NCBI GenBank assembly: GCA_036925085.1
Contig: JAUPFP010000043.1
Span: 942,632 to 1,006,631 of the forward strand
DNA: 64,000 nucleotides
Direction: 5' to 3'
Source of the DNA: Brachycybe producta
Lineage: Eukaryota; Arthropoda; Diplopoda; Playtdesmida; Andrognathidae
Shown here piece by piece: positions 3,247-47,021 of this stretch. The translations under genes were made by a program, and so were the position numbers. The first letter of the stretch is position 1. Each line of letters opens with the position of its first letter. The notes beneath the pieces were generated by a model, which saw only the letters and a list, made by a program, of their open reading frames with translations, ran no database searches and was not told where the DNA came from.

Positions 3247-5179
3247 ATGTCAAAAATAATTTCTTATTGCTTTGTATTGAGTATTATTTTTCAGCTGGTT
3301 GTTTTGATTTCATCTACTACAGCAAGCTGGGGTAATATGCTAATTCATAATTTTATTTACTGTTTTATTACGAGTAAATGCGAATACTCAATACCTTAAA
3401 GCTTTTTTTAAAAAAAATAGTTTTCTATTCGTCTTAATTTTTTTTATCGATTAAATATTATTTCTTGGTAGGTTCTAGTTGCAGCGGACAAAAATTCTCG
3501 GCAAAATCAACTGCATTTTATCCTTCAAATAATCCAGTTGAAGGTGGTTATATTGATTGTGGGGGTAATCCAATACAAACGTTACAGGTATTGATAATTC
3601 AAAACTTTATATAGCAATCTGATTGGGTGAGTCTCATATGTTTTAATGTAGTGGCACAACTAAAAAAACACTTTTTTTGGGGTGCCAAAAACCGTTTTGG
3701 CTATTCACAATAACGGTTTATTTTCAAGCGCCAAATTGAACAAACGCCAATCTGAACTAACGCCAAACTGAATAAACGCCAAATGGAACAAACGCCAAAC
3801 TGAATAAGCGCCAAAATGTGATAAACACATTGTTAGGTTAGGTTAGGTTCGGTTTGGTTAAGTTAGGTTCGGTTTGGTTAGGTTAGGATTGATTAGGTTA
3901 GGTTAGCATGTTCTGTTTGTAAATCTGCACAGTCTGACGTCTATAAAAGCTCACAATATTTGGACCATCACAATTTACAAAAAACCTGAATAACCGCCAA
4001 ACTGAATAAACGCCAAATGGAACAAACGCCAAACTGAATAAGCGCCAAATGGAACAAACGCCAAACTGAATAAGCGCCAAATGGAAGAAACGCCAAACTG
4101 AATAAAAGCCAAAAATTTGGCGGTTATTCAGTTTGGCGTTTGTTCAATTTGGCGCTTATTCAGTTTGGCGTTTCTTCCATTTGGTGCTTATTCAGTCGCC
4201 CCATTGAGATAGAAACAAATGCAACTTAAAACTCATTTTCCCCTCAAAAAAGTGTTTTTTTTAGTTGTGTCACTCCTTCCATCCGAGGTGCGAAGTGTGC
4301 AACAGGTGGTTTTAGAGTGAAAACGCCCGTTAAACTCTGACTATTCTGTCTTTTTGGTACAAAATGAAGAGAAACTTGTATTTACTTTAGAAACTAGAAG
4401 GGTAGCTCAAACACTTAAGGGTATTTTCATGTTTGATATTTTTCAAACTAAACTTTTCACGAGAGTTTGAAATTCACCCAACTTAAAGTAGACGACACTT
4501 GGCGGACAATATCTTTTTTAATTTTTGTGTTTAAGAAGTTTATTATGAAAGATATCATCATGAAAATACTCTTAAGATATTAAGATACCCTTTTAGTTTC
4601 TTAAACAATTTTTAGTTTTTCTTAATTTTTCTCTTCTGAATGACAGAATAATCAAGAGTTCGAAAATCAGCTGTTTTTAAACCATCTCTTAATTAAAGAG
4701 TTTTGTTATAAAACGTCTTTTTTCATATTTATTTCACGTGTATTTTATATTAAAAATATTAATCAATAAATGTTTTTCTAAGGAATTTCTTGCTGGTCAA
4801 GTACAATATGTGAGTGTAGCAATGGATGAAAGTCTAAACATCCAATATGGAACTGAAGTTTGTATTCCTCAACTTAATGAGAAATATCAGAAACATATTG
4901 TATTCAAAGTAAGCTTATTAATACATATATATTTATATTTATTTACCGTAAATTGAATTTATTTCAGTTTTTAAACAGTATTTATTTTTTTTTTAAATTT
5001 ATTTTTTTTCATTGAAGGTTGTTGATACTGCTTCATCATTTTGCGGTCACGGATTTAGTCTTATTAATATCGCCGTTTCTACAGAACAAGACGCTTATGA
5101 TGTTTCAGTAAATGAACAGTTGACCATTGTTTTTCCGCATTTACAATTTGGAAGTCCAAGTTGTTGTAGCGAATGTTAA
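3247..5179 (+). CDS. Array gene 1: secreted double-psi beta-barrel-like protein, 162 aa, four exons
   Basis: Exons by GT-AG sites and paralogue alignment are 3247-3331, 3472-3587, 4783-4908 and 5018-5179. The phases are 1, 0, 0 and the coding length is 489 nt. Residues 1 to about 27 form a hydrophobic signal peptide (MSKIISYCFVLSIIF...), so the product is probably secreted. The mature part contains SSCSGQ, AFYPSNNPVEGGYIDC, YVSVAMD, YGTEVCIPQLN and VVDTASSFCGHGF, ending in a Cys-rich SCCSEC tail. These patterns resemble the RlpA/expansin/3D-domain double-psi beta-barrel, in which the Asp of the VVDT stretch is the active-site acid in enzymatic members; function here is unknown. The ICV cysteine of its paralogues is IAV here, and extra cysteines appear, so disulfide pairing may differ. 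A 72-nt stretch of exon 3 is identical to array gene 3. Intron 2 holds two MITEs. Confidence 0.85.
3651..4274. mobile_element. MITE with internal 16-bp repeats and a TTAGG-like array
   Basis: The ends are inverted: GTGGCACAACTAAAAAAAC at the left matches the complement of the right end near 4240-4274. Inside are many copies of a unit like GCCAAACTGAATAAAC (about 3728-3810 and 3988-4110). The same unit then appears in the opposite orientation (about 4118-4195), so the element folds back. Between them, about 3834-3906, lies GGTTAGGTTAGG-type DNA with variants. It sits in intron 2 of array gene 1. A fragment of the same unit family is at 46596-46760. Confidence 0.7.
4310..4690. mobile_element. 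Abundant MITE family J, copy in intron 2 of gene 1
   Basis: This is a foldback repeat with the phrases AAAATGAAGAGAAACTTG, AGAAACTAGAAGGGTAGCT, TTTTCATG.TGATATTTTTCAAA and their complements on the other arm. The ends read like GGTTTTA.AGTG and its complement. Recognisable copies or halves occur at about 11070-11460, 23860-24300, 25960-26285, 30880-31215, 44368-44650, 44650-44960, 51930-52205, 55505-55690, 57990-58110 and 58995-59150. It is the commonest repeat in the window. No coding capacity is seen. Confidence 0.7.
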
Positions 5180-6660
5180 AAAGAAATCTTATTTGAGACA
5201 ATACAGGGTGTGCACATTTTTTTTTTTTCTTGGAGAAGAGAGGGAGAGGCTGCAATCATAAAACATTAGGACACTATTGGGATAAATTACTTTTTAAAGT
5301 AATTAACTACAATTGCTCTATTGAAAGACTAATTACTTAGTTATAATCAGAAGCACTAAAAAAAAAGCATTTAAGTGGAAAACTTTTGAATTATATACCT
5401 CTCTCAGCCTAAAAAAAAGTTTAATTATGACATCATTGGGATTGACGAACATTTTTAGAATTGTGTCGGTTTAGTCTGATAAAATAAAAACAGATGATAT
5501 CAAACTTTTTCAACAGTTCAAAAGGGTTCTTTTAATTCTTTTGTTATTATTCTGTTTTTATCAAATAAAATGACACAATGCTAAATGTTTCATCGATCCC
5601 TGTTACGTCACAAGCTTTTTTTTTAGAATTAGGCAGGTTTTCTTTTCAATTACAACTCTTGTGGCACCATTTAAATAATACAAAAACGACAATTACAAAA
5701 CTGAATGTAATAAATGGTAAAGTCAATCATAGTTACATGTTTGACAATAATCAAAAATATTTTAACTATCTACTTCCGAATAGTTTGAGAACAGAAATAG
5801 TTAATAATAAACAAAAAGAAATTAAAAACTAATTTGAAAAGTAATTAAAAACTAATTTGAAAAGTAATTAAAAACTAATTTGAAAAGTAATTAAAAACTA
5901 ATTTGAAAAGTAATTAAAAACTAAGTTGAAAAGTAATTAAAACTAATTTAAAGTAATTGTATTTTCACTAGTAAAGGTAAATTAATTTCAATTGTTTAAA
6001 AAGTAATGTGGTATTGTACTAATTCAAAAATTAATTGAATTACAGTAATACATTACGTTCACCATGTTACTTCACAACACTGCATTAATTAAGTTATAAT
6101 TTTTTTTAATTTAATTACTAATTTTATTTTTGAACACGTTTATGTCACCGAATGTGCACCCACCCAATTTATTTCAAATGAAAGTTTTTAATTTTTAAAT
6201 TAATGACCACATATAATTTTTCACGAGTAATTTATTTTATAGATGAAATATTGTAATCTTATAAAATGAAATTATAAATGTATTGAATGCATGTAATGAG
6301 AAATAAATATAAAATAAATCAAAGGATAAATAAAGCCTATCAATATTCTGTAGTTATGCGGCAACCGAGTACCATTTATGGCGCGCTGTTATAATTTAAT
6401 GTTAGATTAATTACATGCCTCATTGTAAAAACAAATTTGTCACGTCAGAGGGGTTCATTACAAGTTAGGAATGTGATTTGGATTAAGGTGGCTTTCTAGA
6501 TATTTATTTTGTTTTCATCTCACCAGGTGTCGCACTTGTTTTGTTAATGTTTTTTTTGCTTTATTTCAGAACCTTCTGAAAATGCCTTGTTTTAGAAGAA
6601 AAAGTTATAAAAGTTATCTTTTTCTCTTTAGTTTTGTTGAGCTCTAGGAAAGCTTTTATT
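5180..6660. repeat. Gene-free AT-rich spacer with a 23-bp tandem repeat
   Basis: At about 5820-5955 a unit of about 23 bp (TAATTAAAAACTAATTTGAA plus AAG) is repeated roughly five times with decay at the right end. The rest of the spacer is AT-rich without recognisable genes. The open frame at 5578-5832 runs into the repeat, is compositionally simple and has no recognisable domain, so it is not called as a gene. Confidence 0.65.
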
Positions 6661-6666
6661 AGAATA

Positions 6667-7140
6667 CTAGTGGTGGTTACCCGTCATAAATGACGGGAGC
6701 AAAATTCACAGTTAATTGTGCCCAGCATTAGAATTTCTTTTCCTCCGCCCTTTTATGCCGTCAGACCAAGTAACAAACCCAACAACCCAATTCATAAAAG
6801 GGCGGAGCAAAAAAAATTCTAGTTTAATTTTGCTACTATTATCCCCTCCCCTTTTTTATATTCGAAAGAGAAAATGAGCGGTTCATTTTCTCTGGTGTGC
6901 GCATGCGCGTCGTTTTTTCCTTTTTGTACTCCTTTCATTTCAATTTCCGTCACCCCCTCCCACTTTTCTCTCCCCCTCTACCCCACTCCAATTTAATATC
7001 ATGGGGTTCTTGGATGGGAAGGGTGCAACATATAGTTGACCTTGAGAAAAAAAAGTTCATTTATTCATTTAAATTTATATAAATTCCGACGTGGTTCAAG
7101 GGTTAAAACGTTACTCATATGAAAAGGACAGACCTGGCAT
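6667..7140 (-). mobile_element. Non-autonomous Helitron-like element with a nested hairpin MITE
   Basis: Read on the - strand, the element ends in a CCCGTCATTTATGACGGG hairpin, a short gap and CTAG. This is the diagnostic 3' end of Helitrons (hairpin about 10 bases before CTRR, inserting at a T). The left part holds a palindromic CCGCCCTTTTATG MITE (about 6718-6815) that is absent from the copies near 40.4 and 60 kb. The interior is pyrimidine-rich low-complexity DNA. The 5' end (GCCAGGTCTG on the - strand) is slightly degraded compared with TCCCAGGTCTG elsewhere. Confidence 0.65.
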
Positions 7141-7339
7141 AATATATATATAATTATTTCCCAATTTGGAATCATTTTAGAGTTAAGAGCCTAGATACAC
7201 GTCCTCCATCTTGTTGTTTTGAGCACATGACAACGAGACAAATGAGTGTTATTATATGGTGTTACTAAAACTGCAAGGAATCGACTTACAATCGCCCAAT
7301 TAAAATACAGTGCACAAGAATTAAAGTGCACAATATAAT

Positions 7340-10544: not shown

Positions 10545-11957
10545 ATGTGTAAAATATTTGTATCTTGGTTTTTATTAACTAGTTTTTTACTTTTGGTGGA
10601 TAACACAATCGATGGTAATGTATTAAGTTTGATTTCTTTAAAATTCACTTAACAGTTATTTGAATATTAAATTTTAATTTTTATATTTCTGTTTTAAATT
10701 ATACATTAGCGGTTTCATTGAGTTGCTCTGGAACTAATAAACACACTGCCAAAGCAACTGGTTATTTTCCTGCAACAAGTGAAGGTGGATTTGTTGATTG
10801 CATGGGTAATAGTTTAAAAACTTTACAGGTAAAACAAATTTCGGAACTGCAAATTTGTTATATGGCTTTATTGAATCTTTTTTGTGTGCTAGTAATTAAT
10901 ATTTAATATTTTTTTTAATAGCAATTTGTTGCTGGTCAAGCTGATTATGTGAGTGTATCAATGGATCAAAACCTAAGGATCCAATATGGAACTCATCTTT
11001 GTATTCCAGAGTTGAATGCAAAATATAAAAAACAAATTCAATTTAGAGTAGGTTTAAAGTCGTTTTAAGGTGGAAAAACCTGGTTAATTCATTTTTCATA
11101 TGGAAAATTCAGAAAAAAATTTAAAATGTTTTAGAAACTAGAAGAGTAGCTCGATCACTTAATGGTGTTTACATTTTTCAAAAATAAGTTTTTATTTGAG
11201 TTTGAAAACAAGTCAACTTTTTAAGTAGATGGTGATTTTTTATTTAAATTTTGGTCTATAAAAAGTTATATTTTAAAAGATAACGACATAAGAATACTAT
11301 TAAGATGGTTTTTATAGTGTAAAAGCCTCTCAAGATCTGATTATTCTGTTTTTTTTTTTCAGGTGCAAAATGAAGAGAAACTTAAATGTGTTTTAGAAAC
11401 TATAAGCGTAGCTTCTAAAGCGTAGTTTCTAAAACATTTTCAATTTCTACTTATTGTGGCACTTCTGAAACGCAGAATAACCAGAAACTTCATCACAGAA
11501 ATAAAAAAAATACTTGTCATATCTAGCTCATAATCTTGTAACAGTCACAAAAGCAAATTACAAAATATTATGACAAATTATTGTTGTCATTGATTATTGT
11601 TATCACAGTCATAAAATAATAGCGCAAAAGAACTGACATCTTAAAGTACTGTATGTCTGTCGCGATTTTATGACTTTTTTTCTTTAAATGAGGCTCCTAA
11701 GTTTGAAAGTTAGCCGTTCATAAAAAACATTTTTTTAAAAGAAATAATTATTGTTATTCCAGTTTTTAATAAGAAATTTTATTTTAATACAATTTTTTTT
11801 GCAGGTTGTTGATACTGGTCCAGCATTTACAGGCAAAGGTTATTCTCGTATTGATATCTGTGTTGATAACGAACATGACAGTTTCGACGATTCGGTAAAT
11901 GGACAATTGACTCTTTATTTTACGAATTTGAAAACTGGAAGTCCATCTTGTGGCTGA
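10545..11957 (+). CDS. Array gene 2: secreted double-psi beta-barrel-like protein, 155 aa, four exons
   Basis: The exons are 10545-10614, 10710-10828, 10922-11047 and 11805-11957, with phases 1, 0, 0 (468 nt). The signal peptide is MCKIFVSWFLLTSFLLLV.... This is one of the copies closest to the family pattern: LSCSGTNKHTAKATGYFP, GGFVDCMGN, ADYVSVSMD, YGTHLCIPELN and VVDTGPAFTGKGYSRIDIC, ending GSPSCG. The DTG...GKG...IDIC run is the best argument for an RlpA/3D-like double-psi barrel. The mature protein has five cysteines. Intron 3 is long because of family J repeats. Secretion and fold are inferred from pattern; no substrate can be named. Confidence 0.87.
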
Positions 11958-14400: not shown

Positions 14401-17400
14401 ATGATGCCGAAAATATTTTTTTCGTGTTTTGCATTGGCCATTTGCTTGATTCTCGTCTCATCAACTAAAGCGACAGTCGGTGGTAATAAGTTAAGCCTAC
14501 TTAATAGATTCGTTTTCTATAATAATGTCATAATGTTTATTATTTTTTTTTTAAAAAGATAGATTTTTAAATATTGAAATATAATTTTAATAAGTTTTTT
14601 TTTCAAAAATAATTTTGGCAGGATATAGTTGCAGTGGAAAGTCATATACTGCCAAAGCAACTGCATATTATCCTGGTTTAAGTCAAGGGGGATTTGTTGA
14701 CTGCAAGAGTAAGAAGTTGCAAAGTTTACAGGTAAAATGATTATTTATATCGGCACTGCAGTGTTTATCAAATGGGGTTCCGTGGAACCCTGAAGTTTTC
14801 TGAAGGGAAAGTAAAGGTTCCGCCAGAAAATTATTAAATTTCACACTGTGAAAAATGTATAATTCTAAAGCCCGTTATACACCGACAATTAGTTCTTAAA
14901 TAAATGTATAAATTAATTTATAAATGTGACATTGCATGTGTATAACGACGTGAATGTTAAATTATTTGTTCAAAGTTGCATTAATTTAGAAGATGTTCTA
15001 TTTTTCTTAAATGATCACATCTATACTAGAGCGCTTTTCCAGGATCAGCATCATTCTTATGTAATTTACAAAGCTATCTACGATGCACTCTGCAACATAT
15101 TTAGCACACCTCTCCCCCCAATTCTCTTGTCTAGAAGGTCACAAAGTTATATATACGATAACCTGTCACACTACGCACTGTTTTGCGCACATTTTTATAG
15201 GTAAAAATGTTCGAATACTTTTACAAGTGTATGACCACCGATTGATACTTATAAATTAATTTATACATTTTATCTACCAAATCTTTGAGTAAAACATTCA
15301 TCATTTAATTGACACAAATATTTCAGACATAATTGATGGAGTATAACGGGCTTAATAGTTTTTTAGAATAATTTAGATTTTAATTTAAGCAGTAACATAG
15401 CATCATGGGTGCGCAGCCCCCCCCCAAAGCCAGTGGAGAATTCACCCCCCTCCCGCACCCCGGGACCAAATGCTGAAAGCGGTTTTTTTTATAAATTTTC
15501 AAATATAATTTTCATCAGTTTTAAAATGATGGAATTTTAGATTGTTTGCAAAATCGTGTTGTGAATGAGTTTCAATTGGCCATAAGATGTGTTTGAAACA
15601 AAGTCTTTAAACTTTGGAAAACATTAATATTCTCCCTATTTCGCGAGCGTAGCTAGCGAGCAATTATTTTATAGTATACTCTTGCTATCAGTTCTGGCGA
15701 GCGTAGCGAGCCGTAAGAAAACAGCACTTATAGTATGACGTATAACAGTGGCTGAAACACCACTACTTTCTTTTAAAATATAAATTAAATAATATAATAA
15801 TAAATTTGGATTTTCGCCCATTCTGATTATTATAAAAATACTACTGGGGTAACCCGTCATAAATGACGGGAGCCAAATTCACTGGCAATTGTGCCCAACA
15901 TTAGAATTTCTTTTCCTCCGCCCTTTTATGACGTCAGACCAAGTAACAAACCAATTAGGAATTGATGACGTTCATAAAAGGGCGGAGCAAAGGAAATTCT
16001 AATGCTGGGCACAATTGCCCGTGATAAACTCAAGTTTAATTTTGCTACTATTATCCCCTCCCCTTTTTATATTTGAAAGAGAAAATGAGCTTTTCATTTT
16101 CTCTGGTGTGCGCATGCGCGTCGTTTGTTATTTTTTTACTTTTTTCATTTCAATTTCAGTTTCCCCCTTTTTCCCCCTACACATTTGTCTCTCTCTCCCT
16201 CCCTACCCTTTCCAACCTTTTCCCCTCTCCAATTTAATATCACGGAATTTTGGATGGGGAGAGCGCAACATAATGTTGACCTTGATAAAAAAAAGTGGTT
16301 CATTTAAATTTATATAAATTCCGATGTGCTTACACGTTTTTGTCCTTGTTTGCACAGCGTTACACATACAGTGAAGGAAGGAAGTAAGGAAGGATAGACG
16401 GGGGTTAATATATATATAATTTTAAAAAGGGTTCCGTTGTCAAATAAAATTGGGAAACCCACTGAAGCAATGAACTATTTATGGAAGTGATTGTTGTTTC
16501 CAGACCCGGATTAAGGTATACATATGCCCCTGGGTAAAAAAAAAAAAGAAAATATGCCCTCAATAAATGGTTATGGCTTACTGACTTAAGGTACAGTACA
16601 TTTCTATTATAGAACATGTCCCCCTTTTTTTCTCAATATGCCTCCTGTGGCATTTGCCCAACTCCGCCCAACTCCGCCCAAGCCGTAATCCGGCAATGGT
16701 TATTTCATACTATTCTGTATGAATGCATTGTACTTTTATATTCATTGAAGTATCCTCAAATGAATATAAAAAGTAATCTAATATACAATGCTACATCGAA
16801 CTGATTTATTCTTTATTATCGTCAATTTCAATTTTGTTTATTAAGAAATGAATTTATAAATTTGATGTTTTTTCTCTGAAGGATTATCTTGCTGGTAAAG
16901 TTGATTACGTGAGTGTAGCAATGGATGCAAACCTAAACATCCAATATGGAACTGAAGTTTGTATTCCTCAACTTAATGAGAAATATCAGAAACATATTGT
17001 ATTCCAAGTAAGCAATTGTGAATACAGGGTGTCCTTAAATTGTCAAAAGTTCTAATAATTAATAAGAAGTCTATACAATGTATTTTAAAGTAATTCAAAG
17101 TGACCCCCCCCCCCTCCCCACAGTTTTTAAAGCATAGGTGCCAACGCTCCACAGTAGCTCTAAGAACGTTTTGTAACATAAGCTTATATCTCCTGTAATG
17201 CTGTCGACTGTAGTTCGAATTTCGATTTTTAAGATCTTGATAAATCTTTAAGCAAAGAAAACTATTGGCGTTAAATCGGGTGAAAGCGGTGATCAATAGC
17301 TCTTTGCGAACTTCTGCAAATTTATCTCAAAGTCTTTGAATGCCCGTGTCTTCCCTTACGAGGATGTATATTTAATAAGCCATTAAGTAGGGCAACATTA

Positions 17401-18174
17401 TCATCTGCCAGTAAACGTCCGAAAAAGGCAAGGCTTTGGTCATTTCTTAGGGCCTGCTAATGATTCCTATTTTAGTTCCTGAAGCATAGAAGATACACTG
17501 TCAGTATACACTTCCTAGTGTCCATCTTCCTAGTATACACTCCCCAGTATACACTTCCTTTCACAAATCTTGCAGCCCTATATGCTGTACCATTTCAATT
17601 TCCTGCTTTAAGTTACTTCTAAATGGGCTTCAAATTGGGGAAAAATGTTAGCAAAACATTGGCAACTTGGTGACAATTTATTACAATTTATTAAAACACA
17701 TATGGCCCACTTATGTTTAGCTATCATTGGACCATCGAGATCAACGGCCAAATGCAATGTTGACCAGATCATTACACCAACGTCGGTATATAAACGCCAG
17801 CGGTTGGCGTTACAATGGTTCCTTATTGGCATCCTGTGTTGGGGCTCTAAGGTTAACACTTGCCCACTAGTTTCAAATATACCTAAAAAAAAAAAAGAAA
17901 ATTATTAACGTTTTCTCTAAAAAATGAATCGAGATTGTTTAAAGACACCCTGTATCAAAACAAATTACTTTCAGGACTTTCAGTTTTGATCAATATTTCA
18001 TTTTTAATATTTTCATTGAAGGTTGTAGATACAGCACCAGCATTTTGCTGTCAAGGATTTTCTCGTATCAATATCTGTGTCTCTACTGAACAAGAGGCTT
18101 ATGATGTATCAGTGAATGAAAATCTGTCTATTGTTTTTCCGAATTATAAAACCGGAAATTCTTGTTGTAGTTAA
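14401..18174 (+). CDS. Array gene 3: secreted double-psi beta-barrel-like protein, 156 aa, four exons
   Basis: The exons are 14401-14482, 14622-14731, 16882-17007 and 18022-18174, with phases 1, 0, 0 (471 nt). The start could also be the second ATG at 14404. The signal peptide is MMPKIFFSCFALAICLILV.... The mature protein shows YSCSGKSYTAKATAYYPG, GGFVDCKS, VDYVSVAMD, YGTEVCIPQLN, VVDTAPAFCCQGFSRINICV and ends NSCCS. The DTG of the family pattern is DTA here, with an extra CC pair in the following loop as in gene 1, its closest relative. Exon 3 is identical over 72 nt to gene 1. Introns 2 and 3 are inflated by a Helitron-like copy, a family H MITE and a 0.95-kb element. Confidence 0.87.
14866..15356. 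mobile_element. MITE family H, copy 1 (intron 2 of gene 3)
   Basis: The left end AAAGCCCGTTATACACCGAC matches the complement of the right end ...GGAGTATAACGGGCTT. An internal inverted pair, TATAAATTAATTTATA, occurs near both ends. A second copy with cleaner ends is at 56768-57252. The open frame at 14926-15204 is inside it and is not a gene. Confidence 0.7.
15841..16400 (-). mobile_element. Helitron-like element with a nested palindromic MITE (intron 2 of gene 3)
   Basis: It begins on the + strand CTACTGGGGTAACCCGTCAT, that is, the complement of the Helitron 3' hairpin end, with CTAC in place of CTAG. A family A palindromic MITE (about 15885-16020, CCGCCCTTTTATGACGTCAG) sits at the same internal site as in the copy at 6667. 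A pyrimidine-rich low-complexity stretch follows, which accounts for the open frames at 16015-16317. Confidence 0.6.
17015..17962. mobile_element. Element of about 0.95 kb with TACAGGGTGTC ends (intron 3 of gene 3)
   Basis: The left end is ATACAGGGTGTCCTTAAA and the right end is TTTAAAGACACCCTGTATC, an inverted pair of about 17 bases, with TA at the outer edge as in Tc1/mariner-type insertions. Inside, about 17340-17580 is the reverse complement of the LINE tail at 20195-20350. No transposase is recognised. Confidence 0.6.
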
Positions 18175-21745: not shown

Positions 21746-23622
21746 ATGTCAACAATTATTTGCTATACTTTTACGTTGATTAGTTTTATTCTGCTGCAAG
21801 TTACATTAATATCTGCAGGTGAGATAAGGTTTCTGAATAGATATTTATTTTGTTTTTGTCCCTCCGGATGGCGTCAATGCAGTGGCTATAATCTATGTTT
21901 TATGGGAAGGTCTTTTTCTCACACCCGCGGTTTGGAGAAAAATTCATGTTTTTCAAGCAAACGTTTTTTTTTTCAGGAAAAACATTACAGAATAATTCAA
22001 AGTGTTTTAGAAACTAAAATAGTTGGTGATAATGCTAAAAGTTTTTTCATGTTGTTATCTTTAAAAATATACTTTTTATGACAGTTTGAAAAAAGGCTAA
22101 AATAGTTTTTTTTATGGAAAAGACTAAAACAAGTCTATTTTCTGTCTTTCTAGTTTTGAAAGCAATTTGAATTTTTTTTTTCGTAATGTTTCTAAAGAAA
22201 ACGTTTGCATAACGTTTTTACGTCCAAATTTTCAAAAAAAAAACAACAACTATAGAACTTAGCATTAGCCACTGCAGTGGTAAACTTTCTGAGAGACAAA
22301 CACAAAATAAATATCTATTCAGCCACCTAAAATTATTTTTTTTAAAAAAAAAGGCATTACAAAACAACAAAAACAAACAAATGTTTAGATATTTTAAAAC
22401 TTTTATGTTTTTGTAGACTTAGATTGCAATGGACCAAATTTACAAAAGCACACCGCAAAGTCGACAGCTTATTATCCTAGTCCAAGCCAAGGTGGAACTA
22501 CTGATTGCAGAGGAAACAAGCTGAATACTTTAGGGGTAAACAGTATTTTACAAGTGATTTCTCTTAATACAATGAAAAGTTCGATTAAAATAGTAGAATT
22601 TAGACAATTTTTTTGAATAACACATGAAAAACAAACAAACAGGAATAGTGCTAGTTTGGTGTTACAGTAAGTATAATAATATATGATTAAAGGCCAATTA
22701 GGAGCCCATATGCAGAAAAAAAAAGTCAACTGAAAATAGAATCTGTCAAATTTAAATAATTTTATTATTAAATAAGTTTTTTTTTTCAGTCGCAATTTCA
22801 TACAGGCAAGTAAGTAAAGACAGTATGATACAGTCGTTTACCCCGCCCCTTTTATGAGGACTGGCAACTTCTAATTGGTTTGTTATGTGGTCTGACGTCA
22901 CATACCCCCTCTTTTCAATTTCCAATTGGTTGATATTTTGTCTGACGTTCATAAAAGGGCGGGGCAAGCAAACGAGTTAGTATCTTCCTGTCTTTACATG
23001 CCTGTCGCTGTCATTCAGTGTTTTCAGCATGTGCGAGACCTTAGATTGACATTAACATATGGTATCACTGAATGTTAAAAATTAATTTTAAATGCAAGAT
23101 AACTATAGTCATTACATATAAGGTATATAAGTACAAATGTAGCAAGTATATCAAACAATTTCATTGCAATTTTTCAATTATGATTTTTTTTTTATAGTTT
23201 AATACATTATTGTTATGTTTTTTTTTAAACAAAAAACAGTTATTTACTGCTTATCAAGCGGATTACGTGAGCGTAGCAATGGCTCCCGATTTGAAAATCC
23301 CATATGGAACTAGTGTTTGTATTCCTGAACTGAATCATAAATATGGTAGAGAAATTGATTTTAGGGTAAGTCACTTATTAAATTTGCTTATATTTATTTT
23401 ATTTCCATTAAAGTTATATATTTTTGGTTTTTAATTAATATTTTTTATTATTATTATTTTCAATCAAAGGTTGTAGATACTGTTGAAGCATTTAATGGAG
23501 CTGGATTTTCTAAAATCAATATTTGTGTTAATAATGCACAAGATGCTGGGGATCCTTCTGTAAATGGCCAATTGACGATTTATTTTTCGAATCTTCAAAC
23601 TGGATTTAACTATTGTGGCTAA
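21746..23622 (+). CDS. Array gene 4: secreted double-psi beta-barrel-like protein, 156 aa, four exons
   Basis: The exons are 21746-21818, 22417-22535, 23240-23365 and 23470-23622, with phases 1, 0, 0 (471 nt). The signal peptide is MSTIICYTFTLISFILLQVT. The mature sequence shows LDCNG, HTAKSTAYYPSPSQGG, TDCRGN, ADYVSVAMAPDL, IPYGTSVCIPELN, VVDTVEAFNGAGFSKINICV and ends NYCG. The IPYGT form is exactly what is seen in bacterial 3D-domain-like proteins. Its GQLTIYFSNLQTG tail resembles gene 2. A TIR element sits only a few bases after the exon 1 donor, and a Mutator-like MITE lies in intron 2. Confidence 0.87.
21825..22331. mobile_element. TIR element (family K) in intron 1 of gene 4
   Basis: The ends are AGATATTTATTTTG with TGAATAG outside it, and the complement AATATCTATTCAGCCACC on the right. 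Inner inverted parts are GCAGTGGCTA and AAACGTTTGC. Longer or degraded relatives are at 46175-46826, about 37715-38150 and around 9640-9955. No transposase is seen. Confidence 0.65.
22802..23005. mobile_element. Mutator-like palindromic MITE (family A) in intron 2 of gene 4
   Basis: The left end ACAGGCAAGTAAGTAAAGAC pairs with the right end GTCTTTACATGCCTGT. Inside are CCCCGCCCCTTTTATGAGGA and its inverted partner TCATAAAAGGGCGGGGC. Confidence 0.7.
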
Positions 23623-25011: not shown

Positions 25012-25803
25012 CTATGAAACTTTTTTTAAACAGTACAATGAGCAGATTTGGAAAAAAAAAAATAGGGCCACTTGTGTAGGTACTGTACCATCTACAGCAT
25101 GTTGTGCATTATCAACACAAATATTGATACGAGAAAGGCTTTTGCCTGTAAATGCCGGGCCAGTAACAACAACCTTTAATTTAAAAAAAAAAAGAAATTA
25201 AAATATATTACTTGTTTCAAATTTAAACCTGAAATAATTAAATAAATGTAATTTTTTTTTTACTTTGAATACAATCTGTCTGTTATATTTCGCATTCAGC
25301 TCAGGAATACAAACTTCAGTACCGTATATGATTTCTAGGTTTTGATCCATTCCTACACTTACGTAACTCGCTTGACCAGCAAGATATTGCTTTTAAAAAC
25401 ATAATTAGTATAAAGAAATAATTAAAGAAAACCGGATAGGAAGGAAGCGATTCGTATTAGCAATGAAATTGAATGCGGCATTCATACTAATTACATCCCA
25501 AACTGTCATATGACAAGTTTTTTTCGTTTTGCAATTATGTAACAAATTACTAAAACTATTTATTTATGCTTGAAATATATTTCTATAAAAACAATGAAGT
25601 ATGGGCAGTTGTATTACATGTTTACCTATTGCTACAACAAATATGAAATAAAGGGGGGGGGGGGGGTTATACCTCTAAAGTGTGTAACTCATTTCCAAGG
25701 CAATCACTAGATCCACCTTCTGAGTTTTCATTAGAAGGAAAATAACTTGTTGCTGTGACAGGCATTCGTACTGGTAGTCCACTGCATTCTGAAGCTGCCA
25801 CGT
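25012..25803 (-). pseudogene. Array pseudogene 5: promoterless copy without exon 1 and with a damaged exon 4
   Basis: Exons 2, 3 and 4 are recognisable at 25673-25803, 25264-25389 and 25012-25173, with splice sites like those of gene 6. Exon 2 gives AASECSGL.VRMPVTATSYFP-type sequence, and exon 3 gives ASYVSVGMD and YGTEVCIPELN. Upstream, the duplicated flank jumps from ATTACCCTCGA straight to sequence that in the gene 6 copy lies beyond the promoter. Exon 1 and the promoter (about 0.4 kb) are therefore deleted. Exon 4 has VVVTGPAF, replacing the conserved Asp with Val. An 11-T run and a short deletion follow and change the C-terminus. This is very likely a pseudogene. Confidence 0.85.
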
Positions 25804-28695: not shown

Positions 28696-31383
28696 TTAAA
28701 CAGTACAATGGGTATTTCCATATTGTATATTTGGAAAATGTATGGTCACTTGTGTAGGTACTGTACCATCTACAGCATGTTGGTAAGTATCAACACAGAT
28801 ATCGATACGAGAATAACCTGTACCTGTAAATGCTGGACCAGTATCAACAACCTTTAATTTAAAAAGATAATTAAATATATATTTCTTGTTTCAAATTTAA
28901 ACCTGAAATAAATAAATAAATGTAATTTTTTTTACTTTGAATACAATCTGTCTGTTATATTTCGAATTCAGCTCAGGAATACAAATTTCAGTTCCGTATT
29001 TAATGTTCAGGTTTTGATCCATTGCTACACTTACGTAGCTCGCTTGACCATTAAGAAATTGCTTAAGAACATAATTTAATTAATTAGTATGAGGACATTA
29101 TTAAAAAAAATCTTGTAGGAAGAAAGTGATTTCGAAGTATCATTAAATTGAATGTGACACTCTTGCAGATAATTCTATGCATAAAAATAAATTTGTAATA
29201 TGGGCATGGGCGCCCACAAGGGGGGGGGGGCAAGGGTGTGGGGGAGGGGGCATTTGCCCCTTTCTAGATTTGATATTTAATTTTGATTTATGAATTTTGT
29301 TCACACATTTCATTATTTACAATCACCTACACCTCGTCCTTAGGTCATTATTTCGAAGTCCCAACCTTACACTACATCATCATACATTACATAAAAAATA
29401 ACTTAGTTATGTTTATTGAAACATGAATAAGTTTTGTCCTCCCCCCACCCTTTTCTGATAAAAAAAATTCTGCAGGCACCCATGAATATGGGGGCGTCTT
29501 AATTTTCTGACAATGCTTTATTTCAGCTGCACCAGAACACATTGCAATAATAATTGTTAATGGGTCTACATCTTTGGGTTTTGACAATGCATTTCACATG
29601 CTGCAATTTGACTTTTGTCTCTATGCCACAGGCCTTCTTAGTAAAGAAATTCTTTACCAAGGTATCAATAACAGGCATCTGTAGGCAGCTTCAGAATTTC
29701 TTTGGATCCGCCCATTTTATGAGCGTCATCAATTTCTAATTGGTTTGTAACTGGGTCTGATGTCACATGCCCCGCACTTTTTATTTCTAATTGGTTGATA
29801 TTTTGTCTGACGCTCATAAAAGGGCGGAGCCAAAGAAATTCTGAAGCTGTCTACAGATGCCTGTGGTATCAATCTAGATAAATTATAATTAATTAATATA
29901 TGAATAATATATAATTAATATTTGAAAAAATATTTCTTAAAAAAACAAACTTATACAAACCAATAAAGTATAGCAGTTGTTTTAGTTTGCATTTTGATTT
30001 ATACTGTGATAAAATATGAGATAAAACGCTTTTTATACCTCTAAAGTGTGTAACGGATTTTCCTGGCAATCCTTAAATCCACCTTCTGGGCCATCGTTTG
30101 AAGGATAATAACTTGTTGCTGTGGCAGGGTGTGATGTTCCACTGCAATCTGAAGCGGCCAGGTCTTTGTTTGTAGAATTTTAAATTTGAAAAGATTGTTT
30201 AGATAAATTCCATTTTGTTTCAAAATGCATATCTCAGAAATTATATCTATAGGAATCTACATGGTTATACCTTGTACACAACACATGAGTTAATTGAATT
30301 CAAATTAAATGTGTTTAGGTAAATTATACTGGAATCCAGTTAAGGACATACGAACCAAATAAAAATTGACTTTATTATTATTTTAAACTGAAATACTAAA
30401 TTAATATTTTGTCAATTGTTTCTATATATATCAATATTTTCAAGATTATTAACTGAATAAATTGAATTCGAAATATTGTTTGTCCTTCACAGGGCTCTGT
30501 AGAACACGTTTATTATTTAAATGCATTTAAACTATCAGGTGTGTGTACTAGACACATTTGAAATTTTAGGTTTTATGAATAGGCAATTTTCAAACTCTGG
30601 CGCCTCATTAAAAAAAAATTCAGACTGTCATATTACAGTAAATCGTCATATCTAGCTCATAACCTTGTAACAGACAAGTTACAACAGTCAAGTTACAAAA
30701 TATTATTATGACAATTACAGTCATAATCATATTTCCATTGATTAGTGTACAGCATAAAATGACAGGCATAAAATAATAACGGCATAAAGATCGGTATCAT
30801 AAGGTATGACTGTCGCAATTTTATAATTTTTTTTTTCTTCTGCAATTTTTAAGGTCTCTGGTTTGTCTGCTTTTCATAAGTAGGATCACTAAGGAAATAT
30901 TGAAAGTGTGTTAGAAACTAGAATGATAATTACCGAATTACTTAGTAATTCCATGTTTGATATATTTCAAAATAAACCTTTTATAGACAAAAAATTAAAA
31001 CAACAATGTCTACTTAAAGGCGGGCTATTTTAAAACTCGCATAAAAAAGCGTACTTTAAAAGACAGGGAATAATTACTCTGCTTGCAGAATTATAATTTA
31101 AAAGATAGCAAGTGTTTGAGCTGCTACTCTTCTAGTTTTTAAAACACTTAATCATGTTTCTAAAATACAAGAATATTTGAGAGTTCAAGGAATGTCCACA
31201 TTTTAAAACCACCTTAAATCATACCATTTGTTTTAAAAAAATCCTAATATTTAAAATTCTAAATCTTAAACAATGAACATAAATATGCAAATTACCCTCG
31301 ATGGTCTTACCTACAAATAAAATAAGTGCAATCAGAGGCAATATAATTGCCAATTCCAAATTTTTTTCCACAATTTTTGACAT
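28696..31383 (-). CDS. Array gene 6: secreted double-psi beta-barrel-like protein, 159 aa, four exons, minus strand
   Basis: Coding order on the - strand is exon 1 31383-31311, exon 2 30163-30039, exon 3 29061-28936 and exon 4 28851-28696, with phases 1, 0, 0 (480 nt). The signal peptide is MSKIVEKNLELAIILPLIAL, longer and with an acidic residue early on. The mature protein shows SDCSGTSHPATATSYYPSND, GGFKDCQEN, ASYVSVAMDQNL, YGTEICIPELN, VVDTGPAFTGTGYSRIDIC and ends NTHCTV. It keeps the full DTG...IDIC signature. It is the intact twin of the broken copy at 25.0-25.8 kb. Introns contain a Mutator-like MITE, a family G MITE and a family J copy. Confidence 0.87.
29671..29864. mobile_element. 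Mutator-like palindromic MITE with target duplication GGTATCAAT
   Basis: The left end ACAGGCATCTGTAGGCAGC pairs with the right end GCTGTCTACAGATGCCTGT. The inner arms are GGATCCGCCCATTTTATGAG and its inverted counterpart. GGTATCAAT flanks both sides (29661-29669 and 29865-29873). It lies in intron 2 of gene 6. Confidence 0.8.
30268..30556. mobile_element. MITE family G copy in intron 1 of gene 6
   Basis: This is the reverse complement of the repeat at 44043-44360, 56462-56765 and 59366-59685. The ends are TATACCTTGTACACA and its complement, and the interior contains AATTTAAATGCATTTAAA-type palindromes and CACATTTAATTTGAATTC. The four copies are very similar, which suggests recent spread. Confidence 0.7.
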
Positions 31384-35895: not shown

Positions 35896-38674
35896 ATGTC
35901 AAAAATGATTTCCAATCCACTTGCATTGAGTATTCTTTTGGTGTTGGTTATGTTCATCTCGTCTACAGGTGAGATTAGAGTTGTGAGTGGGGAATACTAT
36001 CTCAGTGGGAACAGAAGCATAGTTTGGGGGAGGGGGACTGAGAGGGACACATGTCCCTGGGCGCCATGCCCAGGGGACCGCCGAAATTGGCATCAAAACA
36101 TGCTAAAATTGACCCACAAAACTAGCAATAACAACACTTTCAGTTTAATGCATCAATCAAATCAAATTTATAAATGCAATATTGCCATTATTTTATGCAG
36201 ATCTGTGGAGAGGAAAGGGGGAGCCCAGTGCAGCCCTACAGTTTTTTTCTTTATAAATGAGAGGGGTTAAAGTTTTTTTCCAGGGTGGAGCAAGGGTCAT
36301 TTGTCCCCCCTTTCCCCACTTGGTGGGCCTGATTTTATGAATGTTCAGTGATTTGGGTTATGGTTAACAAATGAAACATTAGTTAACCCCTTGTCCCCGG
36401 GTACCAAGAACCATCGCTACGCCTCTGAGTGAGAATTATTTCAAGGGAAGAATTTTTTGTGAGAATATTCCTCCATATAAAAATTTTTTCCCCAGTTTTT
36501 GCATATTTTCTAAAAATTTCCAAAACAAATGTTCTTTATGCATTGTTTCCACTAGGCTGAAAATTTGAACGTATTGAAAATTTCAACTGGTGAAAAAATA
36601 GAAGAAACGTGGCTCCCGCTTATGATAGTGAATGGCCACGTGTGCAATATTTTTCACCAGTTGAAATTTTCAAAAAGTTAAAAATTTTCAACCCAAAGGA
36701 AACAAAAGGCCTTAAGTTTCACTCTTCAAGATGAGAAAGATTCTAAAATGACATTTAACTGAGTGACCCATGTGCAGTTCTTATCTAAAAGTGTAGGTCA
36801 CCTAGTGACCCACAATTTATAACTAAAAAAACACATTTATTTCTTATTCTGTAAGGTTCAACTTGCAGTGGAAAAAACTACAAGTCAGTAGCAGCTGCTT
36901 ATCTCCCTCAAGGTTCTGACTGCAAGGGTAATAAATTGCTAACTTTAGAGGTAAATTACCATTCAATGTTATGCTTTAAGCTACCTTTATTTGTAATATT
37001 TTCCCCATAAATTGTTATGTGTTTAAGGATTATCTATCTGGTAACGCAGATCATGTGACTGTTGCATTGGATAGAAGTCTTCAGATCAAATATGGAACTC
37101 AAGTTTGTATTCCTGAATTGAATGAAAAATATAACAGGCAGATTAATTTCAGAGTAAGTATAATTATATTATTTATTTTGTAGAAATCATAAAATAGTAA
37201 TCAGTTTTGTACTATTGTAGCAATTTCAAATGGTTTCAGGCCCTGTCTTGATGGACCAAATAATTTTAAATTTGGTTCAAAATTAACATAGAAACAGTTA
37301 CAAACCACATTTGTACAAAAAAGAAATTCAAACTTTTTGTTTATTTTCAAAAAAAAAATATATAAAGCATATGTTACTGTCCATCTGCGGAATCAGTCAT
37401 TCTGTACAACTATCTGCACTGCGAAAACCACTAAACTGCTAGTGAATTCAATGCATTTTAGGTGTTGACTTCTGCAGATTCACTAGGAGTATGGAGGTTG
37501 TGCAGATTATCCAGGCAATCTGCAGATTGACTTGATTCCGCAGATGGACCGTAACATATACAGTGAAAACTATTCAATATTTAACACCAACAATCACATG
37601 TATTTTTAAATCAAGTTGCTTAGAATGGCATGCAGATTCTTTCTGTTAGATTATCATGAGTTACAGTATGTTTGTCACGAACAAAATATTTCTGGTTCCT
37701 TCCAGTTCGTTTTTTAATGTGGCTGAATAGAATTATTTATTTTGCTCTCCCCCCCCCCCTCCATCGGACAGCTACACTGCAGTGGCTAATGCTTTGCTTC
37801 ATAGCCATTTTTTTTGTAAAATCTGGGCGGAAAAACGTCAAGCGAACGTTTTTTTTTTTAAAAACAACATCATAAAAAAATTCAAATCGTTTTCAAAACT
37901 AGAATGGTAAAAGAATATCCTAAAAGTTTTTTCATGACAATATGCTCGTATCTTCAAAAAAAAAACATTTTGAATTTTGAAATTTAGGTTTTTTTCATTA
38001 ATATTTCATGAAAAACTATTTTCTTCTTTTTTCGAACTGTCATAAAAAGTTTATTTTTAAAGTAATCAGCATGAAAAAACTTTTAACATGATCACCACAC
38101 TATATTCTAGTTTCGAAAAAAAAACGTTCGTTTCGTTAAAAACGTTAATTTTTAAAATACACAGTCGTGGCAACGGCAATATGTTTACTACTTTTCATAT
38201 TTAAAGTTGTCCAATATAAAGCTTTCAAAGTGCAATGTGCACCTTAAATATATGCTGATCGAGTGATAAAATGACAAAAAGTCCGGTTATATTTAAAAAA
38301 AAAAACTATTTCAAAATCGCGAATTTCTAACTCTTATGTTAAACTCCATTGAGTAAGAAAAACACAACCATTAAAATGTTCATAAAAATAGCTAAAAATA
38401 ATTTTTAAAAAGTAAGGAGTTGTTTGAAGTTTGAACACGGAAGATTAATTATACAAGATTTGCTAAATGAGCAGGGGGATGTTTATTAATAAAAGTGCAC
38501 ACTACAGTCTGTTTTTAATTCTTATTTAAGGTTGATGATTGTATTGTACAAAGTCCCGGCAAAGGATATGGTCAAATTGATATCTGTGTCAATAATTTAC
38601 AGGATGCTTCTAATCCTGAATCGGTGACCCTAGTTTTTCCAGATCTGGTAACTGGAGTTGACTTCTGTGATTAA
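35896..38674 (+). CDS. Array gene 7: divergent secreted double-psi beta-barrel-like protein, 145 aa, four exons
   Basis: The exons are 35896-35968, 36856-36950, 37028-37153 and 38531-38674, with phases 1, 0, 0 (438 nt). The signal peptide is MSKMISNPLALSILLVLVMF. The mature sequence shows STCSGKNYKSVAAAYLPQGS, DCKGN, ADHVTVALD, YGTQVCIPELN, VDDCIVQSPGKGYGQIDICV and ends VDFCD. Exon 2 is about 20 nt shorter than in the paralogues (the S.GG segment is missing). The VVDTG stretch has become VDDC, keeping an Asp but losing TG. It is the most diverged intact member and may have a changed activity. Intron 1 contains a MITE with TTTCCA ends (36540-36720), and intron 3 contains family K and single-arm foldback sequence. 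Confidence 0.85.
36535..36718. mobile_element. Small MITE in intron 1 of gene 7 (second copy at 57415-57598)
   Basis: Inverted arms run from TTGTTTCCACTAGGCTGAAA to its partner CAACCCAAAGGAAACAA, with TTGAAAATTTCAACTGGTGA inside each arm. The copy near 57.4-57.6 kb has the same arms, with AGGCCTTGTTTCCATTGGG at its edge. Confidence 0.65.
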
Positions 38675-42000: not shown

Positions 42001-42121
42001 TTACATCATCGTTTTCACACAGAGATGTGAACTTTAAAAATGAAAACAAAATCACATTAAAAAGAGATAAATCCACACAAGTGGAAAACGAATACAGTGG
42101 CAAGAAGGGTGACTCATTGTC

Positions 42122-42826: not shown

Positions 42827-42848
42827 TCTTAACACCCCAAAACACACA

Positions 42849-43052: not shown

Positions 43053-43059
43053 AAAATGC

Positions 43060-43660
43060 GAGGTGTCATAAGTTGTACCATTATGGCAAAGATAGCGAGA
43101 TTTTCAAACGCAGCCTATGAAAATCAGACTTGCTAATTATTTCGAAAAAGGGTTTTCACTTTTTAAGCCAATGAATTACGACATTATTAATTAATTAAAT
43201 GTGATCATGTGAATCAGTCATATTAATTGTCGTTTATTTTATGCAAAAAAAAATATTGCTTTAAAAACAAAGGTGTTTCTCGATGTTTAGATTATTGTTC
43301 GACGTCCAGACGTCAGCCGGTCCTTTGTTTTATTTTTCTACCATCAGGAAACACTTTTTTTTATTTGGAAACAGAATTTTATAATTATTATTCTTCCTTA
43401 AGTTGATATAATTGACAAATGTCACGGCTCTGACAGCTTTTTGGAAATAAAACAATTACATCTTTTTTTTTTGTTCGCATTCTTTTATTATTATAAAGAA
43501 AAGAAAATTATTTATTAATCTTTTTCAATTAGTTGTTAATCAAGCAAACAATAGAACAAGTGCTGTTTTTCATCAAGTTTTAAGAACAACAGACAAAAGA
43601 CTGATTTTTAGCCTCTGTATATTGCAGATTGTGCGATTGATTATTGATATCTAGTTGCAT
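43060..43660. other. Spacer and upstream region of array gene 8
   Basis: AT-rich, with no gene recognised. The last 200 bases are the expected upstream regulatory region of gene 8, but I could not match the TTAATATTTAATC block there with confidence. Confidence 0.35.
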
Positions 43661-43664
43661 GGAA

Positions 43665-43697
43665 GAGGCTATTCATTTAAAAACTATATAATATTAT
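43665..43697 (+). promoter_or_regulatory. Promoter of array gene 8
   Basis: GAGGCTATTCATTTAAAAAC followed by a TATATAATATTATGCAG stretch, about 105 bases before the start codon at 43796. GAGGCTAT and the TATA box are kept; the middle is diverged. Confidence 0.55.
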
Positions 43698-43795
43698 GCA
43701 GATTTTTGAGATCCTCATTGGCATACTGTAATTTCTTCTTGAACTTTTAAAAAAAAATTAAAAAAGTTTCATTACTTAACTGAAACAATTTCAAA

Positions 43796-46700
43796 ATGAT
43801 TTTCTTTTATTTTGCATTAACTATTTTTTTGCCAATGGTTGCATCAGATTCATACCTAGGTGAGGCATTCATTTTTTTTTCATAATATTTGTTGTAATTT
43901 TATCTAATTTACATATATATTGACAGCTGATTCAATAAAATAAAAATGAATACAAAGAATTGTCACAGTGAACAGCTGATTTTTAAATTTGGATTAGTCT
44001 ACATTTTCAGAAACCACATTTAAGGTTAAATTAAAATTGTGTTATACCTAGTACACACACACCTGATAATTTAAATGCATTTAAATAATAAACGGTGTTC
44101 TACAGAAGAGCCCTGTGAAGGACAAACAAACAATATGTCGAATTCAATTTATTCAGTTAATAATCTTGAAAATATTGAGTTAATACTTAAATATAATTTA
44201 TATAAACTATTGACAAAATATTGATTTAGTATTTCAATTTAAAATATTAATAATAAAAGTCAATTTTTATTTGGTGTTCATGTCCTTAATTGGATTCCGT
44301 ATAATTCACCTAAACACATTTAATTTGAATTCATTTAACTCATGTGTTGTGTGTACAACGTATTAGTAATTATTAAGGTGATTTAAATCACTTAATAGCA
44401 TTTTCACGTCGAAATACAATTTTAAAATAAAACTCTTTTATAGAAGAAAATTAAAAATGTATCGTCTGCTTATGGTTTGGTTAGTTTCAAAGTGACATAA
44501 AAAAGTTTATTTTGAATGATATCAAGATGAAATCACCTTTAAGTAATTGAAATGCCTTTCTAGTTTCCAAACACTTTTTAAATTTTCGCTCTTAATTTTG
44601 TTCTTGGAAAACAGAATAATCAGAGTTCGAGGGCCGTTGACAAATTTAAAACCACTTTAAGATTTGATTATTCTGCATTTCACTAGGAGCAGATAAGAGA
44701 AATTGAAATTGTGTTAGAAACTAGAAGGGTAATTTTATCTCTTAAAGAGTATTTTCATGTTTATTAACTGTTTATCATTTTTAAACTGACATAAACAGTT
44801 TATTTTAAATGATATCAAGATGAAATCACCTTTAAGGGACTGAGCTATACCTTTCTATAGTTTCCAAACACTTTTTTTTTTAATTTTCTCTTAATTTTGC
44901 TCTTGGGAAAACAGAATAAGAAGATTTCGTTGGCCGGTTTACACTTTAAAACCACTTTAAAAATTATTGTGTCTTGATGATGTAGGTTGCAGTTCCAAGA
45001 CCGGTTATTCTTCTACCGCAATTGGTTTTTATCCTTCCAATAATCCAAGTGATAATGACTTTTATGATTGCAGACACAATAAGTTACAAACGCTCCAGGT
45101 TTAAAAACGTTTTTTTTTAACACTAGAAAAATTGTCTTAGCATTTTATTTTATTATTCGTCAATTGTTACTTTAAATAATTCACTAATATTTATTTTTTT
45201 AGGAATTTCTTAATAATGAAGCCGACTACGTGAGTGTAGCAATGGACGAAAATCTGAACATTGCATATGGAACTGAACTCTGTATTCCAGAACTGAACGA
45301 GAAATATAAGAAAAATATTCTATTCAAAGTAATACTTTCTTAAGAAATCGCAAAATTACTTCGAAAAATCTTCGCAAAGAGCGCTAGCATCGTTTTCTTC
45401 TATTGAGCCCATAGATCCAATGTTAAAGAAAAAATGTTAATTTTTAAAATACACAGCAGTCGCGGCGGCAATATGTTTATTTTTCATATTTAAAGTTGTC
45501 CAATATTAAGTTTTCAAAGGGCAATGTGTGCACCTTAATTATATACTGATCGAGTGATAGAATGACAAAAAATTCGTAAGTGCGGTTCTATTTTTAAAAA
45601 CTGTTTCAAAAACGCGAATTTCTAAATTTTATGTTAAACTCTATTGAGTACGCGCTCGTAAACAAAAAAAAAATCCATTAAAATGCTCGTAAAAATACGT
45701 AAAAATAATTTTAAAAAACCAGAAAAAAATCAGCACGTGCGCTAATGTATTGGCTTCACTGTAATTTATTTGTGGGTTTTGAAATTATTTTTGATATTTT
45801 GACGAGCATTGTAATGGATGTTTTATTGCTTATAAGCGCGTACTCAATAGAGTTTAACATAAGAGTTAGAAATTCGCAATTTTGAAATAGTTTTTTTTTA
45901 AATAGAACCGCACTTACCAATTTTTTGTCATTCTATCCCTCGATCAGCGTATATTTAAGGTGCACATTGCACTTTGACAACTTAATATTGGACAACTTTA
46001 AATATGAAAAATAAACATATTGCCGCGACTGCTGTGTATTTTTAAAATTAATATTTTTTCTTTAACATCGGGTCTAAGGGCTCGTTAGAAAAACGATGCT
46101 AGCGCTCTTTGCTGGAGATTTTTCGAAGTAATTTTGCGATGTAGCCTCTTAATATATTAAATTTATTTTATTTAAGATGGCTGAATAGATATTTATTTTA
46201 TTTGTTTTTGTCTTCCTCCGATGGCGACACTGTAGTGGCAATTGCTAATATTTTTTTGAAACATTTGGTCGCAAAAACGTCAAGCGTATTTTTTTATATA
46301 GAAACAATATTATGCAAATAAATTTCAAATTGTTTTCAATACTAGAATAGTAAAAGATTATGCTAAAAGTTTTTTCGTGGCACTACCTTAAAAAATAAAC
46401 ATTTTATAGCTCATTTTGAAAATGGGACCTGTTATTAGTCTTTTCCATAAAAAACTATTTTCGCCTTTTTTAAAAACTGTCATAAAAAGTTTATTTTGAA
46501 AGATATCATCATGAAAACACTTATAGCATTATTACCAACTATTCTAGTTTCTAAAACAGTTTGAATTTGTTTTAGTAATGTATCTTCTGAGGCCTCTGAG
46601 TGCCAAATTGACCAAACGCCAAACTGAATAAACGCCAAATGGAACAAATATCAAACTGAATAAGTGCCAAATTTTCGGCATGTTTATTCAGTTTGGCGTT

Positions 46701-47021
46701 TGTTTCATTTGTCGTTTATTCAGTTTGACGTTTGTTCCGTTTTGCGCTTATTCTTCTTTTTGGCGCTTGATATCAGGACATCTGTGAGGAAATACAAAAT
46801 AAATATCTATTCAGCCACCTTGAGAGACAAGAAAAATTCAAATTTTAATTTGTATGTTTTGTATGTTTTTTTTAAAGGTTGTTGATAATGGTTCATTAGT
46901 TGGTGGAAAAAAATATTCTTTAGTTGATATTTGTGTTGCTGGCGGGTACGACTCTTCAGTGAGTGGACCAGTCACTCTTTATTTTACGAATCTACAGACT
47001 GGAAGTGCCACTTGTCATTAG
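43796..47021 (+). CDS. Array gene 8: secreted double-psi beta-barrel-like protein, 148 aa, four exons
   Basis: The exons are 43796-43859, 44986-45098, 45203-45328 and 46878-47021, with phases 1, 0, 0 (447 nt). The signal peptide is MIFFYFALTIFLPMVAS. The mature sequence shows CSSKTGYSSTAIGFYPSNNP, DCRHN, ADYVSVAMDENL, YGTELCIPELN, VVDNGSLVGGKKYSLVDICV, and ends GSATCH. The DTG of the family is DNG here, and the SRID run is SLVD. Intron 1 contains a family G MITE and two family J copies. Intron 3 contains an 800-bp palindrome followed by a family K element with a fragment of the GCCAAACTGAATAAAC repeat. Confidence 0.87.
44043..44360. mobile_element. MITE family G copy in intron 1 of gene 8
   Basis: The ends are TATACCTAGTACACACAC and GTGTGTACAACGTAT, an imperfect inverted pair. 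The interior is shared almost base for base with copies at 56462-56765 and 59366-59685 and, reversed, with 30268-30556. Confidence 0.75.
45347..46142. repeat. Near-perfect palindrome of about 800 bp in intron 3 of gene 8
   Basis: The left arm begins GCAAAATTACTTCGAAAAAT and continues through GCGCTAGCATCG and CAGTCGCGGCGGCAATATG. The right arm ends in the complement of the same sequence. The arms are close to 390 nt each, with a loop near 45730-45780. A smaller relative lies at about 47800-48350, and a single arm is at about 38145-38425 in an intron of gene 7. It contains no open frame. Confidence 0.75.

Follow-up and report, generated by a model that had tools for sequence, protein, structure and literature searches.

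A cluster of small, probably secreted millipede proteins with similarity to 3D-type lytic-transglycosylase domains and a catalytic aspartate kept in only half of the copies

Animals break bacterial walls mainly by means of lysozymes, amidases and PGRPs. The present analysis concerns a family of small genes clustered in a 64,000-nucleotide stretch of the genome of the millipede Brachycybe producta (the window; C43:942632-1006631, where C43 is contig 43 of an assembly of 295.3 Mb with 442 contigs), whose predicted products resemble lytic-transglycosylase-type domains of the 3D (three-aspartate) group. The closest known situation found is that of aphid RlpA1-5, which are likewise clustered, intron-containing genes of double-psi beta-barrel (DPBB) type in an arthropod, with signal peptides in four of the five (PMC2829048). 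The aphid genes are reported to be raised in bacteriocytes (PMC2829048, PMC9116674), and a single-domain, plant-type barrel protein was described in the whitefly (PMC11800479). In contrast to the millipede family, which is of 3D type with its domain distributed over exons 2-4, the aphid proteins are of RlpA type, with the DPBB domain in one exon and an additional cysteine-knot domain.

Among bacterial proteins, the residues of this domain type were described for MltA and YuiC (PMC4499186). The catalytic carboxylate is Asp308 in MltA and Asp162 in YuiC, oriented by Thr99 and Thr91, respectively; Asp297/Asp151 contacts the sugar at subsite -2, and Asp261/Asp129 completes the trio of aspartates. 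MltA numbering is used below. For the diffocin hub hydrolase CD1368 (8v3w), region 338-458 was reported as a lytic transglycosylase with a Tyr-Asp-Asp triad (PMC10996793).

Seven intact genes of four exons with GT-AG introns and one broken copy (g5) were located in the window. Exons 3 and 4 were placed by tblastn matches, and the boundaries of exons 1 and 2 by a search constrained by GT/AG sites, reading frame and a single terminal stop; all splice junctions are thus sequence-based predictions. The search gave a unique solution for five of the seven genes, four solutions for g3 and two for g4, and under all solutions the intron phases were 1,0,0 and exon 3 measured 126 nt in every gene. The introns ranged from 77 to 2150 nt, and the proteins from 145 to 162 residues. 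Exon 1 of g6 and of g8 was found by scanning for hydrophobic first exons; for g8 the scan gave two candidates, and the one closer to the gene, with the better donor, was chosen. The same scan found no first exon for g5. Between paralogs, tblastn at the exon level reached E-values as low as 5.7e-22, so that chance similarity is excluded, and the gene array is real. The eight copies are listed below by window coordinates.

g1, 3247..5179, plus strand: exons 3247-3331, 3472-3587, 4783-4908 and 5018-5179; 162 residues; Asn in the catalytic-Asp column.
g2, 10545..11957, plus strand: exons 10545-10614, 10710-10828, 10922-11047 and 11805-11957; 155 residues; full active-site set T/Y/D/D/D.
g3, 14401..18174, plus strand: exons 14401 (or 14404)-14479 (or 14482), 14622-14731, 16882-17007 and 18022-18174; 154-156 residues; Asn in the catalytic-Asp column.
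g4, 21746..23622, plus strand: exons 21746-21818, 22417 (or 22423)-22535, 23240-23365 and 23470-23622; 154 or 156 residues; first Asp replaced by Ala, Asn in the catalytic-Asp column.
g5, about 25057..25792 (ends of tblastn matches), minus strand: broken copy, in which exons 2 and 3 are open.
g6, 28696..31383, minus strand: exons 31383-31311, 30163-30039, 29061-28936 and 28851-28696; 159 residues; full active-site set.
g7, 35896..38674, plus strand: exons 35896-35968, 36856-36950, 37028-37153 and 38531-38674; 145 residues; neither EGG loop nor orienting Thr, but all three Asp present.
g8, 43796..47021, plus strand: exons 43796-43859, 44986-45098, 45203-45328 and 46878-47021; 148 residues; orienting Thr replaced by Ile and Tyr by Phe, three Asp kept; exon 1 less certain than in the other genes.

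The gene count, the constant phases and the wide range of intron lengths (from below 100 bp to above 2 kb) were thereby borne out as first described in the initial annotation. That annotation had also spoken of a tandem array. The clustering holds; since g5 and g6 lie on the minus strand and the other six copies on the plus strand, the locus is a cluster and not a pure head-to-tail array, and it extends upstream of the window. A VVDTG pattern said to be shared was found intact only in g2 and g6 among the seven intact genes. In exon 4 of g5, VVDT has become VVVT, with loss of Asp297, and the frame is lost at a poly-T run. Hydrophobic first exons were visible in all seven window proteins, and secretion is predicted from this feature. 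A satellite with a 16-nt period (CGCCAAACTGAATAAA-like) and an inverted half was observed at 3694-4209, within intron 2 of g1, and at 46582-46785, within intron 3 of g8.

Whole-genome searches with two family proteins yielded at least 15 copies, spread over four contigs, and 14 of them have open exons 2-4; these counts are lower bounds. At least ten copies fall within about 58 kb of C43, eight in the window and two upstream (C43:932159 and C43:939448), and at least five lie on other contigs (C15 and C67 with one each, C30 with three). The length of exon 3, initially considered invariant, was 126 nt in 13 of the 14 open copies, including six of the seven outside the window; the copy at C30:1453k has 129 nt. 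For the seven outside copies, a scripted search for first exons gave a unique solution for L037, left two options each for L033, L035 and L036b, and four for L036a. No solution came out for L032 or for L034; in L034 the end of exon 4 was misplaced, yet an ATG exon is visible. Two irregularities were observed among these copies: the donor of exon 2 in L036b is GC instead of GT (L036 4586), and in L033, on C43 upstream of the window, a partial duplicate of exon 2 (4333-4425) stands immediately before the real one.

Family assignment was based on profile comparisons of the alignment of the 14 open copies. Against 13 Clostridioides-type hub hydrolase domains (set A3, two rows of which are Carnobacterium phage proteins with a 3D annotation), hhalign gave a probability of 97.2% and a score of 64-65, while the best of 60 column shuffles reached 19.2 and the reversed profile 11.2. 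Against 12 phage 3D-type domains (set A7), the probability was 83-84% with a score of 35.8-36.6 over 96 columns, with all three aspartates aligned; none of 200 column shuffles was as good (maximum 22.0), the reversed profile scored 11.8, and leaving out g6 changed the result little (81.7%). The two phage sets matched each other at 99.6%; they have one row in common, and a further row of A7, L096, was found by a search with that row. Compared with the single E. coli MltA sequence, the family scored 22.3, above all 200 shuffles (maximum 20.6), aligned over residues 276-327. A profile of the seven window proteins retrieved the hub hydrolase 8v3w from the PDB with E 0.0032 for the sequence and E 0.013 for the stretch 338-428, which lies within the reported lytic-transglycosylase region. 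This profile is the one relied on, because PDB searches with A3 or with the joint alignment A6, which include Clostridioides phage rows, are circular for 8v3w. Membership of the family in the 3D group of lytic-transglycosylase-type domains is supported by these profile comparisons, and a double-psi beta-barrel fold can be inferred from the similarity to 8v3w and MltA-type domains.

The likenesses extend to individual motifs. With CD1368 and the Clostridioides phage hubs, the millipede proteins share the TAYYP...EGG..DC start, the VxDxG and RID motifs and the Tyr-Asp-Asp columns. In contrast, the hub domain is part of a larger, intronless phage or bacteriocin baseplate protein, where it stands beside NlpC/P60, and it ends in FGRxxG, which the millipede proteins lack. 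With the Pfam 3D family (PF06725; YuiC, YocH, Sps and phage 3D proteins) they have in common a small domain with three aspartate positions, in which VDP..PLG, DTGG and KID align with VAMD..YGT, VVDTG and RID; they differ from its members by scores below the Pfam cut-off, by additional segments and conserved cysteines, and by the loss of the third Asp from half of the copies. The layout of a signal peptide, here predicted, followed by the domain only is that of YuiC (PMC4499186). Equivalents of Asp261, Asp297 and Asp308 are common to the family and E. coli MltA, which differs by an inserted domain (PMC4499186).

The active-site columns differed markedly in their conservation. Among the 13 phage hub domains, the Thr, Tyr, Asp297 and Asp308 columns were filled without exception; the Tyr of the triad was taken to be that of TAYYP, since no other Tyr is invariant in this set. 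Among the 14 open copies, from which g5 was excluded, the Asp297 equivalent was present in all and that of Asp261 in 13, Tyr was found in 11 (Phe in the other three) and Thr in nine. The catalytic Asp308 equivalent was kept in only seven and was replaced by Asn in five, by His in one and by Arg in one. Thr together with all three aspartates was retained by five copies on three contigs, namely g2 and g6 in the window and L032, L034 and L035 elsewhere. The copies with Asn, His or Arg occupied about three places on the tree, the deeper nodes of which are weakly supported; the catalytic Asp was therefore probably lost more than once. The pattern of kept and lost catalytic residues suggests a mixture of enzymes and wall-binding proteins.

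Codon models gave an omega of 0.35 for the nine cluster genes, of 0.26 when all 14 copies were included, and of 0.34-0.42 per exon in the nine-gene set, which fits purifying selection with moderate freedom. In pairwise Nei-Gojobori counts, pN was smaller than pS for 89 of the 91 pairs; the median ratio was 0.67. The lowest dN/dS among the 20 pairs listed, 0.29, was that of the dispersed pair L034/L035. No positive selection is claimed, because the codon-model omega remained at 0.23-0.42, though pairwise ratios reach 1.25. Between g1 and g3, DNA identity was uneven, with 91% in exon 3 (4783-4908 / 16882-17007), 62% in exon 2 (3474-3587 / 14624-14731) and 74% in exon 4 (5018-5176 / 18022-18171); exon-wise exchange is a possible explanation.

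We lean, by a modest degree of confidence, to the following reading. The family would be a lineage-expanded set of small animal proteins, probably secreted and consisting of a single 3D-type (MltA/YuiC-like) domain each, in which the copies with the full residue set are transglycosylase-like and the others are predicted not to cut. The five full-set copies would most likely be secreted proteins acting as lytic transglycosylases do. At subsite -2, their Asp297 equivalent would hold the N-acetyl group, and the Asp308 equivalent, oriented by the Thr of TAYYP, would cut chains of beta-1,4-linked amino sugars and leave a 1,6-anhydro end. Bacterial peptidoglycan would be the first substrate to consider; chitin oligomers are possible, because YuiC acts on penta-NAG (PMC4499186). 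In the copies with Asn, His or Arg at Asp308, cutting is predicted to be absent, and glycan binding through Asp297 may remain. The proteins could plausibly serve to defend against bacteria, to digest microbes or to control the walls of symbionts.

Several observations weigh against this reading. Although MltA exceeded its shuffles, its hhalign probability was just 3.3. Extending the profile from the seven window proteins to all 14 members weakened the 8v3w match to E 0.3, over residues 338-368 only. Pfam 3D (PF06725) was matched by one of the 14 members, g6, at E 0.011 and 16.4 bits against a cut-off of 23.8; this weak match spans positions 2-68 of the 72 in the profile, and for no member did the Pfam scans give a convincing match. 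The segment LQTLQxFLAGxADYVSVAMD has no counterpart in six of the eight phage rows of the joint alignment. Pairwise dN/dS was high (0.29-1.25 in the 20 pairs listed), which relaxed constraint would fit as well. Finally, since half of the copies lack the catalytic Asp and just five of 14 keep Thr with the three aspartates, enzymatic function is not general in the family.

The same residue counts favour the alternative in which the whole family is non-catalytic, acting as binders through lectin-like recognition of microbial glycans or through protease inhibition, with the remaining residues structural. Protease inhibition is known for some other double-psi barrel proteins; the initial annotation had mentioned it, and nothing in the present results supported it here. 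Precedents for non-catalytic roles exist in the whitefly, where single-domain DPBB proteins are described without evidence of wall loosening (PMC11800479), and in the aphid, where the peptidoglycan role of RlpA is doubted (PMC9116674). It is nevertheless somewhat unlikely that all copies are binders, given that the full set of mapped active-site residues persists in five copies spread over three contigs, including L034 and L035 with their dN/dS of 0.29.

A bolder form of the transglycosylase reading is distinctly less credible, and we regard it as doubtful. It would make the family an undescribed system of innate immunity or symbiont control, in which a bacterial or phage-type 3D lytic transglycosylase was acquired anciently, gained introns and a signal exon, expanded, and split into cutters and Asp-to-Asn sensors or holders of wall fragments. 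Transfer from bacteria or phages is in itself a possible origin. A tblastn search of one member against plasmids and phages gave weak matches (E 0.3-0.5 for four records and 0.04-0.7 for six), nine of the ten being Clostridioides hydrolases. No close prokaryotic or viral relative was confirmed in scans of genome and viral contigs with the family alignment, the patterns of which lean on the CIP motif, so that distant relatives could escape; scans with PHROGs and NCBIfam gave nothing useful. No published description of an animal 3D family was found in the literature searched, which is not proof of absence, and in a 2026 study of arthropod chimeras from horizontal gene transfer (PMC13389597), RlpA, expansin, beta-barrel and 3D domain do not appear in the main text. 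Under the transglycosylase reading in general, the use of a 3D/MltA-type domain by an animal would represent a different wall-cutting chemistry in animal biology. The live and dead active sites within one cluster would form a natural set of active-site variants. The family would also be another arthropod case, beside aphid RlpA, of a clustered barrel family tied to bacterial wall proteins.

Very little probability was given to a secreted salivary or gut effector directed at another organism (a plant, fungus or animal host), with the barrel serving as scaffold. The clustering, the one broken copy and the exon-wise identity differences between g1 and g3 would fit such an interaction gene family, while the active-site pattern points to glycans.

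Identity with other barrel families was considered and rejected. The initial annotation had named RlpA, expansin and 3D proteins together as resembling this family; only the 3D part held, through the phage 3D-type profiles and the MltA score above shuffles. E. coli RlpA gave a probability of 0.2, with 74 of 200 shuffles as good, in a comparison that involves one sequence and has limited power. For expansins the result comes from Pfam: none of the 14 members drew a DPBB_1, RlpA or expansin model at E up to 10, HMMER filters dropping most matches above about 0.1. An aphid-type RlpA was set aside because the exon layout differs, with no separate second-exon (cysteine-knot) domain and the matched domain extending over exons 2-4. 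Expansin-, RlpA- or GH45-type looseners of plant or fungal walls, for which the broad fold class common to both, by inference, and the known DPBB genes of whitefly, plant-parasitic nematodes and aphids (PMC11800479, PMC2829048) might speak, are scarcely credible with RlpA at shuffle level, neither DPBB_1 nor expansin among the Pfam models listed, and clearly positive comparisons with 3D and hub-hydrolase domains.

Downstream of the array, fragments of a WASP-like gene were observed at 49421-50711 on the plus strand, consisting of a WH1 domain (E 6.8e-7) followed by a polyproline open reading frame with a CRIB-like motif. Because this gene adjoins it, the cluster can be placed in ordinary nuclear DNA. 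When ten other open reading frames of the window were scanned with Pfam, WH1 was the single clear match, and Rfam gave no match over the window at the gathering score.

Elsewhere in the assembly, contig C442 was recognized as mitochondrial (15,359 bp, code 5, 18.8% GC). In its Thr-ND4L-ND4-His-ND5-Phe block the protein genes lie on the COX1 strand, ND2 has moved, and no Leu tRNA was found between COX1 and COX2; we take this gene order to be rearranged relative to the ancestral one. COX1-like stretches were also observed in two large contigs, at C1:12697416-12698753 and C17:4027703-4029047, and are probably nuclear copies of mitochondrial DNA.

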